Of a stretch of DNA of 30,653 nucleotides, positions 14,540-20,390 are shown piece after piece. Below the pieces are notes generated by a model. The model saw only the letters and a list, made by a program, of their open reading frames with translations. It made no database searches and was not told the origin of the DNA. The position numbers were made by a program, and so were the translations under genes. This DNA is from a virus. The stretch lies in IMG/VR virus record IMGVR_UViG_3300030117_002279, positions 1 to 30,653 of that record; one strand, 5' to 3'. Positions within the stretch are counted from its first letter, which is position 1. Each line of letters begins with the position of its first letter.

Positions 14540-14786
14540 GATTTGTTTTCTTATCTTTTCTCACCTGATGGGCAGCAAAAAAAGCCTCAAGCTCTACAAG
14601 TCGGCCAAGTAAAGATGCAAGAAATACATCCTGTTTCATTTGATGTCTTATCAGATGCGTGCAATACCGTTTGATGCTGTAAATATCATCAGAGGCCAAA
14701 ATGTCACGACATCTCTGTTCCACCGACAGCTCAAGCTCTAGTGGAGCATCTTCTATCTCGATATTTAGAAATTTTCTTTTTTTCAT
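14511..14786 (-). CDS. Hypothetical protein, 91 aa
   Basis: Ninety-one residues, mostly helical, with ELSVEQRCRDILASDDIYSI and RHQMKQDVFLASLLGRLVEL as the longest regular stretches and a basic C-terminal tail (RKDKKTNPMKRFFRIP). No membrane segment or known motif. It is the last gene of a three-gene minus-strand island and is coupled to the 53-aa gene by ATGA. The 3' end overlaps the convergent plus-strand gene by 29 bases. Function unknown. Confidence 0.6.
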   Translation of the reverse strand: MKKRKFLNIEIEDAPLELELSVEQRCRDILASDDIYSIKRYCTHLIRHQMKQDVFLASLLGRLVELEAFFAAHQVRKDKKTNPMKRFFRIP

Positions 14787-14944
14787 TTTACTGGGAAGAG
14801 TTTTTCTTCAATCATCTTGACGATGGCGTCGTCTACATCATTGTCAGATTTCTGTGCAAGATCCTTTAAAAGATTTAAAGCTGCTTTGCGTAGTGATTCA
14901 CTTTTGCCGAATCTGATGAATAGGTTGATTAAAAATTTAGACAT
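14783..14944 (-). CDS. 53-aa hypothetical protein
   Basis: Fifty-three residues: MSKFLINLFIRFGKSESLRK, then a helical AALNLLKDLAQKSDNDVDDA and VKMIEEKLFPVK. It could be an amphipathic helical peptide. The stop overlaps the next start as ATGA, which is the main evidence for it, together with a continuous, unbiased reading frame. The gene lies 34 bases downstream of the membrane peptide gene. Not recognised. Confidence 0.55.
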   Translation of the reverse strand: MSKFLINLFIRFGKSESLRKAALNLLKDLAQKSDNDVDDAIVKMIEEKLFPVK

Positions 14945-14978: not shown

Positions 14979-15140
14979 TTAGTCTTTTTGACCTTCCATG
15001 CGACTTACGGCTCTTTCTAATCTATTTATTCGGCTAAACAATTCAACAATATCTCTGTCTCTTCGATTACTTACGTTAGACAGAACCATGAGGAAGGCGG
15101 TGGCTGCTGCTCCTATTAACGCTCCATATACCTCTGGCAT
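14979..15140 (-). CDS. 53-aa membrane peptide with charged helix (holin-like candidate)
   Basis: Fifty-three residues: a single N-terminal hydrophobic segment (VYGALIGAAATAFLMVLSNV) followed by a strongly charged helix (NRRDRDIVELFSRINRLERA). This one-TM-plus-coiled-coil layout recurs in small marine phage proteins and in some class III holin- or spanin-like peptides. No endolysin is recognisable next to it, so the lysis role is only a possibility. It starts the minus-strand island and faces the plus-strand membrane protein across a 46-base divergent gap. Confidence 0.6.
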   Translation of the reverse strand: MPEVYGALIGAAATAFLMVLSNVSNRRDRDIVELFSRINRLERAVSRMEGQKD

Positions 15141-15186: not shown

Positions 15187-15609
15187 ATGGCAGAGAAAGT
15201 AAAAGATTTATCAGAAAAACCGAAACAATTAGACGATGATAAACCTGATTACCAAGAAAAAATTACCTTTCTAGTTTCTACTATTGCACAGGCATTTATA
15301 TTAACTTGGTGTTTATTAGTTTTGTCTCTTGGATACATAAAACTTCCTAATAAATTATTCGGAATAGACATACCAGACCAACCTAGAGTAGATAGTACTT
15401 TTGCTGCTGGATTACTTGGAAATATTTTAGGAGGGCTAGGAATAAGTGTTAATGCAGCACAAGGAGCTAAAAAGAAAAAGAAAGAAGAAGGAGAAAATGG
15501 TGTTATTGGTAACTCTACTGGTGGCACTCAAACTATAATAATAAAACAGCCATTAGAAATCGTCACAACAAAACCTGACATAATCAAAGTTGATCCTACA
15601 AAAAAATGA
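15187..15609 (+). CDS. Membrane protein, 140 aa, two hydrophobic segments
   Basis: A 140-residue membrane protein. A charged N-terminal 26 residues is followed by a hydrophobic helix (FLVSTIAQAFILTWCLLVLS), then a short loop with IDIPDQPRVD, a second Gly/Ala-rich hydrophobic stretch (FAAGLLGNILGGLGISVNAA), a lysine-rich patch and a Thr/Ile-rich tail. The layout is holin-like, but the extended C-terminus is unusual for one. It begins the plus-strand block and is coupled to the first secreted protein by ATGA. It may anchor or help export the secreted proteins, which is inference. Confidence 0.65.
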   Translation: MAEKVKDLSEKPKQLDDDKPDYQEKITFLVSTIAQAFILTWCLLVLSLGYIKLPNKLFGIDIPDQPRVDSTFAAGLLGNILGGLGISVNAAQGAKKKKKEEGENGVIGNSTGGTQTIIIKQPLEIVTTKPDIIKVDPTKK

Positions 15610-16121
15610 AAAAACTACTTCCATTTTTATTTCTCGTATCCGCACCAGCTTATGCTGATATAAAACAGGAATTTGTAACCTCTGCACAAATTTCCATAGA
15701 CTCGCCTTATGTAATTACTAATGCCGCCCCATCGAGCTACAGCATAAGCGGAAATAATATCACCACTTCTACAGGAACAGGAGATAGTGTGGTAACAAAT
15801 GGGATAGGTGGATTAAATCTTGGTAGCTTAAGTAATGGAGTACCAGCTTTAGTTAATACAAATAAATCGGTTACAACAGCTGGCTCTGCTTTCTCTCTCA
15901 GCGAAAGTTATCAGGCTGGAGATGTAACGCAATCTGCAATCACTCCATCAAGCGGTATTGCAACTCTTCCTGTACTTGGCGGACAGACAACAGTAATTTC
16001 TGGAGGAACTGCGGGATCGCTCGCCCTTACGAGTGTCAGTTCAGGAATACATACTTGCACAGCAGGAGGTAGCGGAACAAGTTGTATAGGATCTACTACT
16101 GTCCGTATTACGATTGACTAA
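15606..16121 (+). CDS. Secreted Ser/Thr/Gly-rich protein, paralogue A
   Basis: 171 residues with a clear Sec signal peptide: MKKLLPFLFLVSAPAYA, likely cut after AYA. The mature part is a Ser/Thr/Gly/Asn-rich, probably beta-rich protein with SSYSISGNNITTS, NGIGGLNLGSLS and VTTAGSAFSLSESY. These three segments are matched in the next gene product (YSASGHNIESS, TVGGVNFSWTS, ITTPGSAFSLQETL) in the same order, so the two are paralogues. Near the C-terminus, CTAGGSGTSC may form a disulphide. The role is unknown. Similar exported proteins are, as I recall, frequent in marine cyanophages. Confidence 0.75.
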   Translation: MKKLLPFLFLVSAPAYADIKQEFVTSAQISIDSPYVITNAAPSSYSISGNNITTSTGTGDSVVTNGIGGLNLGSLSNGVPALVNTNKSVTTAGSAFSLSESYQAGDVTQSAITPSSGIATLPVLGGQTTVISGGTAGSLALTSVSSGIHTCTAGGSGTSCIGSTTVRITID

Positions 16122-16551
16122 GCTTTGGCTACTAATTTTATTATTACTGCCTGTCAAAATCCTTGCAGTGCCAGTAGTCCCTCAGTTCAGATCTGGAAGT
16201 TCTCAAATTTTAAGCACCTCAGAAAGTGTAGTTAATGAAGTCATTACTAGCCATCAATATCGTACAGGATACTCCTACTCTGCATCAGGACATAATATTG
16301 AAAGTTCCGATCTTAATGGATATATCAACCCTACAGCTAAAACTCTTACAGAACAGACAGTTGGAGGAGTAAATTTTAGTTGGACTTCACCAAACTTAGA
16401 GGCCGTTCCAAGATGGACAATAACAACTCCAGGATCAGCCTTTTCTCTTCAAGAAACTCTAATAACACCAGGATTAGACACAGTAACAACAATAACAAGA
16501 ACAATAAATACAAGCACCACAGTAGAAACTACAACTACATTTGGGCAATAG
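16114..16551 (+). CDS. Secreted Thr/Ser-rich protein, paralogue B
   Basis: 145 residues with a TTG start (16114-16116), overlapping the stop of paralogue A by eight bases. The signal peptide is MTKLWLLILLLLPVKILA. The mature protein shares three ordered motifs with paralogue A, including the TTxGSAFSLxE block, then ends in a Thr-rich stretch TVTTITRTINTSTTVETTTT. I recall cyanophage proteins with the same 'GSAFSL.ETY..PGL..T..RT...T..TT' ending. Nothing indicates catalysis. It may be a surface or periplasmic protein expressed during infection. Confidence 0.72.
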   Translation: MTKLWLLILLLLPVKILAVPVVPQFRSGSSQILSTSESVVNEVITSHQYRTGYSYSASGHNIESSDLNGYINPTAKTLTEQTVGGVNFSWTSPNLEAVPRWTITTPGSAFSLQETLITPGLDTVTTITRTINTSTTVETTTTFGQ

Positions 16552-17132
16552 CTTTATTTCTTTGTCCTGTCAAAACCCTTGCAAACACTACAGTGGCCTC
16601 GCCAAGTAGTAATGCACAAGGGGTCGTTAACAACAATGCCACGATGATTACACCATCTAGTATGCCTTCTTTTCGTATGAGTCAAGGTATTGTTTGTGCT
16701 TCTCCTAGCCTAACTATTACTCCCTATGTAACTGATTCTCATACATTTTCCTTGCCGAGAGAAACTGTTACCAAACAGAATATCTATGACGAGAATACTG
16801 GAGCGATAAAGTATGTACAGGAAACTCCCCGATTTGAGAAGGAAAACTTTAATTTGAATTATGGGATTTCTGCTCAATTAAACATTCCATTAGGAAAGTC
16901 TCCACAACTTTGCCATAGGGCAACAGAAATTAATATCAAAAATCAGGAATTATTGTACAAAAAAACCAAGTTAGAGATCAGTTTACATAGGCTAAAAATA
17001 TGTGCGGAACAAGCAAAATTAGGTGTTTACTTTAAACCTAATACTCCTAGTGCTGTTTCTTGTGAAGATATTGTAGTTACAGTTCCACCAAATCAAGTTA
17101 TCCCACATACTCACGAATTAAAAACTAAGTAG
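16539..17132 (+). CDS. Secreted 'NTTVASPS' cyanophage-type protein with a non-standard start
   Basis: From about codon 16539 the product has a signal-like hydrophobic segment (WAIALFLCPVKTLA), then NTTVASPSSNAQGVVNNN, CASPSLTITPYVTD, FNLNYGISAQLNIPLGK, a helical KKTKLEISLHRLKICAEQAK, and SAVSCEDIVVTVPPN. This order matches hypothetical exported proteins I recall from cyanophages, where the mature form starts ANTTVASPS. No ATG, GTG or TTG stands at the expected place. ATT (16539) or ATA (16548) would be needed, or translation from ATG 16413 or TTG 16380 with an Asn-rich extension read out of frame from the upstream gene. The coordinates given assume ATT. The gene ends overlapping the convergent 213-aa gene by eight bases. 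Confidence 0.65.
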   Translation: MWAIALFLCPVKTLANTTVASPSSNAQGVVNNNATMITPSSMPSFRMSQGIVCASPSLTITPYVTDSHTFSLPRETVTKQNIYDENTGAIKYVQETPRFEKENFNLNYGISAQLNIPLGKSPQLCHRATEINIKNQELLYKKTKLEISLHRLKICAEQAKLGVYFKPNTPSAVSCEDIVVTVPPNQVIPHTHELKTK

Positions 17133-17766
17133 ATTTATCTTTTTTCTTTGTAAGCCTTTTTACTATCTGTTTTACTAATGGCTTTACTGCGTTAAGAAGA
17201 AGTGGACTACTGGCAGCAACCAAGCCAATAACAGCAGTAGATACAATAGTAGAAACTTCTGGAATGTACTGATCTTTAAACGGGACGTTTTCATAGATAG
17301 TTATACATTCAATCCCATCATCTCCTCTTTTATGACCAATGACACGTTCCACTCGTTTTTCGTTACGAAAGTCTCCTACCCTCTGATCTTTTTTATCAGG
17401 GCAGGGTTCTAATTCAATATCTTTATCTTTTGGTAGCTCTGGTATCTCTTGTTGTTTTGTTTCTGGTAAGGGTGGGGTTTCATTAGTAACAGGAACTTCT
17501 TCTGTAATGACAAGATTCTCAGGTGTATAGTCAAGAGGAATAAAACTAGGAAATGCAAAATCACACGTTGTATATACACCATTAGGATCTTCTAATAACA
17601 AATTACGATTACCTGTATTTTTTATATCACGATGTTGATAAGTACAACCAGGGACATCTATATCAGGTGGTTTTGTAATAGTTAAATAATGTGGACTATA
17701 AACTTCTGGAACGTCTGGAATATATATTTCAGGAATACTTATATCAGGTATTTCAGTCAAAGGCAT
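17125..17766 (-). CDS. Proline-rich protein with C-terminal membrane anchor, 213 aa
   Basis: 213 residues with a Pro/Ile-rich N-terminal half (EIPDISIPEIYIPDVPEVYS; TNETPPLPETKQQEIPELPK), a middle charged region (GDFRNEKRVERVIGHKRGDD), and a C-terminal hydrophobic segment (VSTIVSTAVIGLVAASSPLL) followed by a basic tail VKQIVKRLTKKKDK. The Cys residues CTYQH, TTCDF and EPCPD could form disulphides. It looks like a tail-anchored or pore-like protein with an extended N-terminal arm. I recall Pro-rich proteins with similar C-terminal anchors in cyanophages. Role unknown. The start overlaps the end of the 53-aa zinc-ribbon gene by 14 bases. Confidence 0.65.
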   Translation of the reverse strand: MPLTEIPDISIPEIYIPDVPEVYSPHYLTITKPPDIDVPGCTYQHRDIKNTGNRNLLLEDPNGVYTTCDFAFPSFIPLDYTPENLVITEEVPVTNETPPLPETKQQEIPELPKDKDIELEPCPDKKDQRVGDFRNEKRVERVIGHKRGDDGIECITIYENVPFKDQYIPEVSTIVSTAVIGLVAASSPLLLNAVKPLVKQIVKRLTKKKDKST

Positions 17767-17914
17767 CTCGTTTCTTTAATACTTCTACCTCTGAAAAGCA
17801 TTTAGGGCAAGATAAGTTAGTCATTACAGAAAACTCAGGATAAGTTGGCATTAATTCATCAATGTCTATATCGCCACTTGTTATAAGTTCAGCATCGCAC
17901 CAGAAACAATTCAT
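17753..17914 (-). CDS. 53-aa zinc-ribbon protein
   Basis: Fifty-three residues: MNCFWCDAELITSGDIDIDE, then LMPTYPEFSVMTNLSCPKCF, then SEVEVLKKRDAFD. C3/C6 and C36/C39 are two CxxC pairs about 30 residues apart, the arrangement of a small zinc ribbon. It overlaps both neighbours (ATGA with the 77-aa gene, 14 bases with the 213-aa gene). It could be a nucleic-acid or protein contact module. No family name is justified. Confidence 0.65.
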   Translation of the reverse strand: MNCFWCDAELITSGDIDIDELMPTYPEFSVMTNLSCPKCFSEVEVLKKRDAFD

Positions 17915-18144
17915 AGACCAATTTTCTTTGATGGAATTGGTAGTGATGGCCCTGTCACTTTTGGAAGGTTATTGTCTAGAACTTTGGGCATCAGGTTTTG
18001 TACGTTTCCAAGCACTTCATTCATTAATTTGTTCTTGAATTGTTCAGAGGTCACATATTTATATGTGAAAAAACCACCCCCTAGGATTCCCAAAACAAGG
18101 ACTGTAGATAGAATAGAGAGGTAGTTGCAGACTTTTTGAAACAT
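17911..18144 (-). CDS. 77-aa single-pass membrane protein
   Basis: Seventy-seven residues with an N-terminal hydrophobic helix (YLSILSTVLVLGILGGGFFT), followed by YKYVTSEQFKNKLMNEVLGN, QNLMPKVLDNNLPKVTGPSL and a basic end. The 'FxYKYVTSEQFK...MNxVLG' pattern is, as I recall, common to small membrane proteins of cyanophages. The outside part is helical and polar. It is coupled to the zinc-ribbon gene by ATGA. Function unknown; a role in tail or envelope contact is speculative. Confidence 0.65.
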   Translation of the reverse strand: MFQKVCNYLSILSTVLVLGILGGGFFTYKYVTSEQFKNKLMNEVLGNVQNLMPKVLDNNLPKVTGPSLPIPSKKIGL

Positions 18145-18653: not shown

Positions 18654-20390
18654 TTACCCTGCTTCGAGGGCTGTGACTTTTGCTGACAGTTCTTTTATTG
18701 CATTTACCATGTGCCAAAACAATTCATCTGTTACCACTGTTTTAACACCTTTTTCTCCTGTCCTAACTGCATTAGGTAAAACAGTTTCTAATTCCTGTGC
18801 AATACAACCTAACTGTAATCCTGTCACTCCTTGTTGAATTAATACTTGATTTACGTTATCAGCATTAGAAAATTGATTTATATCTACTGTGTCATCTGAA
18901 GATACAGGGGATCCATCAACATACTGTTTATATTTAAAGTTTCTTACTTTAACTTGATTAACTATTTCAAGACCTTTCGTATTATCTACAATATCTTTTT
19001 TAAGTCTTTGATCTGAAGTTGTATGCCAATTTGCATCATTAGCACCCATAAAACAACGACCAAATTGATCACCAAATATCCAAGTCTCAACATTACTGGA
19101 GGCTGTCCCATCTCTGGCAATATAAAGTTTGGAATTACCTGTAGTTACTTGACCCTCACCAGCTTGATGTCCTAAGAAAACATTAGTAGATCCAGTTGTT
19201 ACATCTTTTCCGCTTTCATATCCTATAGCTGTATTATTTGTTCCAGTTGTGTTTGCTTTTAAAGCCTGTCTTCCAATGGCTGTATTGTTACTAGCGGTTG
19301 TATTTGATAACAAAGCTTCTGAACCAAATGCTGTGTTGTCAATACCTGTAGTAGTTTTTTCCATTGCAAAATAACCACTAGCAGTATTATTATTTCCTGT
19401 TGTATTTAACAACATAGAACTAGTACCTAAAGCGGTGTTGTTTGCTCCAGTTGTGTTTTGATTTAAAGCATTACTTCCTACGGCTGTATTGTTTGCTCCC
19501 GTTGTGTTTACTTGTAAAGCGACATAACCAACAGCAGTATTGTCATTTGAAGTTGTACTAGTGTTTAAAGCATAAGATCCAAGTGCTGTATTTTGTGTTC
19601 CTGTTGTACAAGCACTCAAAGAATTAGTACCTACGGCTGTATTATTATTTGCCGTAGTATTTGCATCTAAAGCTCCAGAACCTACAGCTACATTGAAAAT
19701 TCCAGTTGTGTTTGCTAGTAATGCTTGCTTACCCACGGCAGTATTATTTGCAGCTGTTGTGTTTGCTTTTAAAGCTTCAAAACCAATTCCTACATTGTTA
19801 TCGGCTGTTGTGTTATTAACTAATGCAGCTTGACCAATAGCAACATTATAAGAACCAGTTAAGTTCGCTTCAAGTGCAGCATGACCAATTCCAGTGTTGT
19901 ATTGACCTGTTGTATTTGCAGTTAACGAATAAATACCAATAGCAGTATTTCTATCAGCCGTAGTATTTGCGTCTAAAGCAAAAGCACCCACAGCAGTGTT
20001 TTCAGCTCCAGAAGTTAATGCAGTTAAGGCATCTTTACCAATAGCAGTGTTATTTCCACCACTAACAGAAGCATCTAAAGCACCTTCTCCAAGAACAGTG
20101 TTACCAGCAACAGAGTTTGCGCCTTTACCAATATTTACTGAATTTATTGTTCCATCAACAGCAAAGGCTGGACCTCCAGCAAGACTAAATAGATTTATAT
20201 GAGCATTATTAGACGTATTTCTAAGCTGCATAATACTTGATGTGGTATTAGCAAAAAATTGACTAGCGTAGTTTGTAGATGGTGCAGATGATCCAGAATT
20301 ATTAGAAGATATTGCTAATAAAGCGTTATTTATATCTGCTCTCACGTTGGCTCCAGTGGAGTTATCTATAACGTAATCATGTTGAGCCAT
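18654..20390 (-). CDS. Tail fibre protein with YadA-head-like repeats and S74 chaperone domain
   Basis: A 578-residue receptor-binding fibre. Residues 97-402 are about 18 tandem 17-residue units of the form NTAxGxxALxxNTTGxN (Hep_Hag/YadA head-like), continued by a diverged 19th unit to 419. This is the building block of left-handed beta-roll trimeric adhesins. The C-terminus (about 459-578) is an intramolecular chaperone of the peptidase S74 type, with HTTSDQRLKKDIVDN at the expected self-cleavage site before S459. The N-terminus MAQHDYVIDNSTGANVRADI (about the first 30 residues) is like fibre attachment regions in marine phages. It should trimerise, cut off its own chaperone tail, and bind the host surface. 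Confidence 0.9.
   Translation of the reverse strand: MAQHDYVIDNSTGANVRADINNALLAISSNNSGSSAPSTNYASQFFANTTSSIMQLRNTSNNAHINLFSLAGGPAFAVDGTINSVNIGKGANSVAGNTVLGEGALDASVSGGNNTAIGKDALTALTSGAENTAVGAFALDANTTADRNTAIGIYSLTANTTGQYNTGIGHAALEANLTGSYNVAIGQAALVNNTTADNNVGIGFEALKANTTAANNTAVGKQALLANTTGIFNVAVGSGALDANTTANNNTAVGTNSLSACTTGTQNTALGSYALNTSTTSNDNTAVGYVALQVNTTGANNTAVGSNALNQNTTGANNTALGTSSMLLNTTGNNNTASGYFAMEKTTTGIDNTAFGSEALLSNTTASNNTAIGRQALKANTTGTNNTAIGYESGKDVTTGSTNVFLGHQAGEGQVTTGNSKLYIARDGTASSNVETWIFGDQFGRCFMGANDANWHTTSDQRLKKDIVDNTKGLEIVNQVKVRNFKYKQYVDGSPVSSDDTVDINQFSNADNVNQVLIQQGVTGLQLGCIAQELETVLPNAVRTGEKGVKTVVTDELFWHMVNAIKELSAKVTALEAG
19185..20102 (-). repeat. 18 tandem 51-bp repeats within the tail fibre gene
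   Basis: The DNA encodes about 18 consecutive 17-codon units with a fixed NT..G..AL core and variable exposed positions. Units are diverged in bases while the protein frame is kept, so they are old duplications under selection. Copy number could change by recombination without frameshift. Confidence 0.85.

Follow-up and report, generated by a model that had tools for sequence, protein, structure and literature searches.

Introduction

The closest described relative of the locus reported here is a gene cluster of cyanomyoviruses. According to Sullivan et al. 2010 (PMC3037559), T4-GCs 218, 219, 234, 235 and 237 and a "plasmid stability" gene were clustered in 15 of 16 cyanomyoviruses; the authors termed this a mobile cluster and assigned no function to it, and the accessible text does not remark on export signals, on the A-B paralogy and B/C overlap described below, or on siphophage carriers. 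A second point of comparison is given by the spanins. In the spanin survey of Kongari 2018 (PMC6139136), 20 marine cyanophages were found to be without a spanin, and a fragile outer membrane was guessed for them; the spanin-less list includes carriers of the cluster (P-HM1, P-HM2, P-SSM2, P-SSM4, Syn9, Syn19, Syn33, S-SM1 and others), while S-PM2, Syn5 and P-SSP7 are also given as spanin-less, and S-PM2 and P-SSP7 do not carry the cluster. The same survey points out that overlapping spanin genes are often overlooked by gene callers, and that an i-spanin could be replaced by a type I inner-membrane protein whose transmembrane (TM) domain is C-terminal, and an o-spanin by an outer-membrane protein. 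Little is known about the way in which marine cyanophages lyse Prochlorococcus and Synechococcus, and a notable part of ocean carbon is moved by this lysis.

Results

A siphophage form of a cyanomyovirus cluster

The window (the whole stretch of DNA that was analysed, a virus record of 30,653 bases) comes from a siphophage whose tail module is lambda-like. It runs from rightward early genes into a compact block, with genes G, A, B and C pointing rightward and D and E pointing leftward, and then into leftward tail genes. A, B and C (15606-17132) are real, consecutive and tightly packed genes: the stop of G overlaps the ATG of A, and C and D are convergent with an 8-nt overlap. The earlier note had described three consecutive genes with signal-like N-termini, in a block that takes in the two-TM protein before them (G) and the Pro-rich membrane protein after them (D), with relatives in cyanomyoviruses. 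All of this was borne out, and the block proved larger than first described, with G ahead of A and both D and E convergent with C: a signal-type N-terminus with a small-residue cleavage site is found in 202/203 relatives of A, 220/220 of B and 238/238 of C, and the proteins align with those of P-SSM4, Syn9 and P-HM2.

Several further genes lie close to the block. Just before G, on the minus strand, a 53-aa single-TM protein (14979-15140), seen in 41 of the 112 siphophage-type loci with enough flank, shows a weak likeness to holin family phrog_1350 (E 0.16). Another 53-aa protein upstream of the cassette (14783-14944; phrog_2738/402) is kept in 111 of those 112 loci, and between D and E (17753-17914) lies a further 53-aa protein, Cys-rich and resembling a zinc finger, which is present in 58 collected loci. 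The 578-aa tail-spike/fibre protein at 18654-20390 consists mostly of NTAxGxxAL-type repeats and has a C-terminal chaperone-like region.

The P-SSM4 annotation links the cluster numbers of Sullivan et al. to G, H (T4-GC219), D, C, A and E, and six families (237, 236, 235, 234, 218 and "plasmid stability") all have homologues in the window, as judged by profiles and by the P-SSM4, Syn9 and P-HM2 alignments. The window block is the siphophage form of a cluster already known from cyanomyoviruses. Myoviruses carry the order A+B+C+|D-(H-)E-G-, with H present in many loci, and siphophages the order G+A+B+C+|D-E-; H is missing from the window and from MED4-117. The ABC half converges with the D-side half in more than 200 loci, and the cassette stays together in these two unrelated phage types.

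Co-occurrence in other phages, on which the reading in the earlier note had depended, was found: tblastn against 50,697 phage records matched B in 406, C in 435 and D in 408 records, nearly all of them cyanophages, and gene order is kept in the sampled loci. The lower counts for A (53) and G (77) are probably due to faster divergence. At least 594 stretches in IMG/VR code for C, and among isolates the Prochlorococcus siphophages MED4-117, MED4-184 and P-HS2 come closest. When 84,980 bacterial and archaeal genomes were scanned with profiles, 9 loci came up, chiefly on single-cell contigs or in metagenome bins; the phage cassette was present in those that were checked, on which ground host-derived genes were rejected, and no cellular homologue of the cassette was found in these genomes. 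Cassette-bearing cyanophage contigs occur in records labelled Euryarchaeota, Lewinella, Formosa, Bacteroidetes, Nonlabens xiamenensis (a 188-kb contig) and Gammaproteobacteria (L162-L168), and these foreign labels are likely the result of contamination or misbinning. As to its neighbours, the cassette adjoins a phage photosystem I gene cluster in P-TIM68 (L088:11-6054), hli genes in P-HM2 and psbA/psbD in S-SCSM1.

A and B are exported paralogues

A (15606..16121, plus strand; 171 aa; T4-GC237) has a predicted signal peptide for export and matches phrog_564 (E 6e-40). B (16114..16551, plus strand; 145 aa, with a TTG start; T4-GC236), likewise predicted to be exported, matches phrog_650 (E 2e-39) and is a member of DUF6322 (PF19847), scoring 100.7 bits against a curated cut-off of 30.6. 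The two share three motifs in the same order: SYSISGNNITTS in A and YSASGHNIESS in B, GGLNLGSLS and GGVNFSWTS, and TTAGSAFSLSE and TTPGSAFSLQE, respectively. The mature parts match each other in BLASTP (E 5e-7), and profiles of the mature-part families, built from 54 and 39 sequences, match with 98.1% probability (E 1.3e-13); the PHROG models of A and B give weak cross-matches, and in MED4-117 the DUF6322 model faintly matches A too. By these sequence comparisons A and B are paralogues, with homology beyond chance, as had been proposed from the three ordered motifs. The AlphaFold2 (AF2) model of B (mean pLDDT 79.9, pTM 0.46) contains two strands of 23 and 24 residues. Among solved structures, B and C have no relatives, and A and D give chance-level matches only.

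C starts inside B

C (16413..17132, plus strand; about 239 aa; T4-GC235, phrog_1755/848) matches phrog_1755 (E 2e-55), has four conserved Cys and a C-terminal PHxH, and is predicted to be exported, with the mature part starting at about 16584. Its AF2 model, of low to moderate confidence (mean pLDDT 65.1, pTM 0.36), predicts a 40-residue helix and a long beta-hairpin (strands of 21 and 22 residues). C is homologous to neither A nor B, so that a third homologue was rejected. The third gene is of a different type, as the earlier note had stated, but the duplicated signal segment that it was said to share did not hold up: 21-nt segments at the end of the B and C signal peptides are identical at 11.5/21 positions within loci and 11.6/21 between unrelated loci, which rules out a duplication.

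Of about 80 close relatives, most have no usual start codon near the C signal peptide. The C frame opens upstream, within B (ATG at 16413 in the window, with TTG at 16380 as the alternative), and in 228/229 loci it lies in the -1 frame relative to B. Most myoviruses have the C ATG at -210 or -198, that is, 166 nt before the end of B (e.g., Syn9 gp165/gp166, P-SSM4), so that the out-of-phase overlap measures 166 nt there and 139 nt in the window (16413..16551, plus strand). Across the overlap, no stop interrupts the C frame in any of 85 myovirus and 141 siphophage-type loci (226/226 testable), counts that are not independent because the loci are related; under synonymous resampling of B it stays open in 7.3% (myovirus) and 6.6% (siphophage-type) of cases, and the other alternative frame of B has more stops than expected. 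Near the end of B, Thr codons hardly vary at their fourfold (third) sites, and substitutions with a conservative effect on C (CTT/ATT/GTT) are tolerated, while the overall contrast between overlap and non-overlap is modest (p=0.04). Judged from the reading frames and their substitutions, the B/C overlap is dual-coding and conserved.

Because C starts inside B, it would carry a long Asn/Arg-rich n-region before its hydrophobic stretch and cleavage site. A non-AUG start (ATT/CTT/ATA) beside the signal peptide is unlikely, since in all loci the frame stays open upstream, where it has an NTG start. A classical -1 frameshift from B into C seems improbable, as inspection of the window by eye revealed no canonical slippery heptamer at the end of B. 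The corrected start matters for annotation: the gene is wholly unannotated in S-SCSM1 and S-PRM1 although the frame exists (L089:13375-14133 and L252:5011-5625), and gene callers have probably omitted it owing to the out-of-frame overlap with B.

Membrane partners

Signal and hydropathy analysis marks each cassette member as exported or membrane-anchored. G (15187..15609, plus strand; 140 aa; T4-GC218, phrog_2714) scores 26.6 bits against DUF6450 (PF20048; cut-off 25), making it a member, and was aligned with its relatives from P-SSM4, Syn9, P-HM2 and MED4-117. Hydropathy gives it two TM segments, a short loop and a Lys-rich C-terminus, and the flank charges of four G proteins predict an N-in/C-in orientation; these are traits of class II holins, and the architecture of G is predicted to be holin-like, of class II. 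D (17125..17766, minus strand; 213 aa; T4-GC234) matches phrog_570 (E 1e-41) and is, by alignment and hydropathy, a Pro-rich protein with four conserved Cys, one TM segment near the C-terminus and a basic tail; no signal peptide was detected in D, so an N-out topology is doubtful. E (17911..18144, minus strand; 77 aa; T4-GC414) matches phrog_568 (E 2.5e-15). One N-terminal TM segment is seen in E (by alignment and hydropathy) and in H (by hydropathy). An i-spanin is a type II inner-membrane protein with an N-terminal TM domain; E, though, is only 71-87 aa long. Across cyanophages, E usually carries the label "plasmid stability" (phrog_568, T4-GC414), which later papers have taken as a sign of cassette mobility; we found no support for a plasmid function in this 71-87 aa single-TM envelope protein (window 17911-18144, L083:6011-6226).

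Timing and virion evidence

Both myovirus half-operons begin with an element resembling the T4 late promoter: among 60 distinct sequences upstream of A, 49 contain NTAAATA at a distance of 21-34 nt (5.5 expected), as do 22 of 32 upstream of G (3.6 expected), and it is not found before C or D. In S-PRM1, the element precedes 15/42 structural-module genes vs 11/106 replication or metabolic genes (p=6e-4). The exact NTAAATA is missing before A in Syn9, P-SSM4 and P-HM2. In Sullivan et al. 2010 (PMC3037559), the T4 late-promoter query was TATAAAT. Late timing would presumably extend to the siphophage form as well.

The S-SCSM1 record flags virion proteins, none of them encoded by the cassette (this is one phage, and C is unannotated in that record); S-CREM2 lacks B, and its virion table is thus uninformative on the cassette. 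Pfam and NCBIfam searches of the cassette proteins returned DUFs or chance matches only and no structural family, so that the match of the whole set to known virion proteins, which would have spoken against the earlier note, was not found.

Spanins and endolysins

None of the A, B, C, D, E, G or H families has a lipobox, which rules out a canonical spanin or lipoprotein. The o-spanin of a two-component system, an outer-membrane lipoprotein with a lipobox Cys, thus has no counterpart in these seven families, and D fails as a unimolecular spanin (N-terminal lipobox and C-terminal TM domain), having the C-terminal TM segment and neither lipobox nor signal peptide. A match to a known lysis family was found for none of the cassette proteins.

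We also compared endolysins in 20 cyanophages, 11 of which carry DUF6322 (B). Free-standing PF00959 (T4-lysozyme) or GH19-like endolysins occur in 7/9 phages without the cassette and 0/11 with it, a comparison among phylogenetically non-independent phages. We found them in cassette-less S-PM2, S-CREM1, S-CRM01, S-CBWM1, S-CREM2 and S-B68; that of S-N03 is taken from its paper (PMC7472177). The contrast becomes weak if PF18013 (Phage_lysozyme2) ORFs of 179-212 aa are counted, which are present in 5/11 carriers (Syn9, S-SCSM1, S-PRM1, S-TIM5 and S-SKS1). Among the cyanophages compared, PF13539 had no match over the cut-off and PF01510 none. The carrier MED4-117 (38.8 kb) had no match to five endolysin families, and ten of its mid-size ORFs are structural, replication or other genes or belong to no known family, with no lysis family among them.

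Discussion

The block is real and conserved; it is directed at the envelope, is probably expressed late and is not known to be part of the virion. We tentatively read it, with somewhat less than even confidence, as a late, non-virion envelope cassette that helps to lyse the host, with the outer-membrane step as its most likely point of action, in phages without recognisable spanins. The earlier note had suggested an export or surface system, which is vague; the evidence leans to late envelope disruption over a secretion or surface system, a leaning that is unproven. Participation in lysis is supported by the export or anchoring of all members and the retention of the set in two unrelated phage types, by the late-promoter-like elements in myoviruses and the lack of virion flags in S-SCSM1, and by the carriers being largely listed as spanin-less (PMC6139136), the endolysin contrast, and the absence of lysis-family matches in MED4-117. 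It is weakened by the PF18013 ORFs in carriers and by spanin-less S-PM2 and P-SSP7 without the cassette; by the missing lysis-family matches and lipobox and the doubtful N-out topology of D; by the lack of an exact late element before A in Syn9, P-SSM4 and P-HM2; and by the number of proteins, six or seven being many for outer-membrane disruption.

In the mechanism that we envisage, holin-like G would insert in the inner membrane with its two TM segments, and A, B and C would be exported by Sec. C, with its long beta-hairpin and long helix, and A/B may then form a periplasmic or outer-membrane assembly, which D (Pro-rich, disulfide-capable and membrane-anchored) and E (a type II small membrane protein) would tie to the inner membrane; the envelope would be breached once G fires. 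Complex formation, the topology of D, late timing in siphophages and the lytic role itself are what we infer here. That the outer membrane is broken by a Sec-exported A/B and C assembly joined to D, E and holin-like G, not by lipoprotein spanins, would amount to a new lysis route common to myo- and siphophages; we regard this as possible but rather doubtful.

The main rivals to a role in lysis are superinfection exclusion and a conduit function. Exclusion systems commonly use exported small proteins and small membrane proteins, the very kinds found in the cassette, which might coat or seal the envelope (the outer membrane, a receptor or the DNA entry path) and so bar other phages, or might remodel the envelope and stabilise the infected cell. 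The diversification of the paralogues A and B fits such a function, as does the variable position of the block, which Sullivan et al. 2010 (PMC3037559) described as mobile. It would be unusual, however, for an exclusion gene to be almost universally conserved in two phage lineages, and the late-promoter-like elements before A and G in myoviruses speak against early action, which leaves exclusion or remodelling an unlikely explanation.

The cassette might instead build an outer-membrane channel or trans-envelope conduit that works during infection, in product export or nutrient uptake. The modelled strands and helix of C and strands of B recall oligomeric barrels or channels and may be read as outer-membrane or channel-forming shapes, D, E and H could supply the inner-membrane part, and in P-TIM68, P-HM2 and S-SCSM1 the block lies beside photosystem or hli genes. 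Model confidence is only moderate, however (pLDDT 65 and 80, pTM 0.36 and 0.46 for C and B), no ATPase or substrate gene is linked to the block, and late elements suit release better than nutrient uptake; we therefore consider a conduit improbable. Virion or tail-associated proteins are a very improbable reading: the S-PRM1 block lies inside the structural module, adjoining the sheath stabiliser and small terminase, and D and E in the window come after the tail genes on the same strand, but the proteins have signal peptides and no structural-family match, and S-SCSM1 flags other genes as virion proteins.

Returning to lysis, a cassette that is conserved across hundreds of cyanophages, directed at the envelope and probably late would offer a concrete, testable gene set for this step. 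Compared with known systems, G resembles the class II holins (phage 21 S type) in its two TM segments, short loop, charged C-terminus and size (79-140 aa), and differs in having no family match to a known holin. The cassette shares with the spanins of lambda (Rz/Rz1), T4 (PseT.3/PseT.2) and T1 (gp11) small envelope proteins, an out-of-frame overlap, Pro-rich segments, a membrane protein with a TM domain at one end, and conserved Cys; unlike them, it has no lipobox and no sequence homology to them, both of its overlapping products are exported, and it has more components. MED4-117, MED4-184 and P-HS2 have the same gene order, with identities to the window of 89% for A, 69.5% for C and 53% for D, although there the genes are annotated merely as hypothetical proteins and the B start is called too early in MED4-117. 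Finally, the cyanomyovirus cluster, as given in Sullivan et al. 2010, has the same families in the same convergent half-operon order, whereas the siphophage form does without T4-GC219 (H) and places G at the head of A-B-C.
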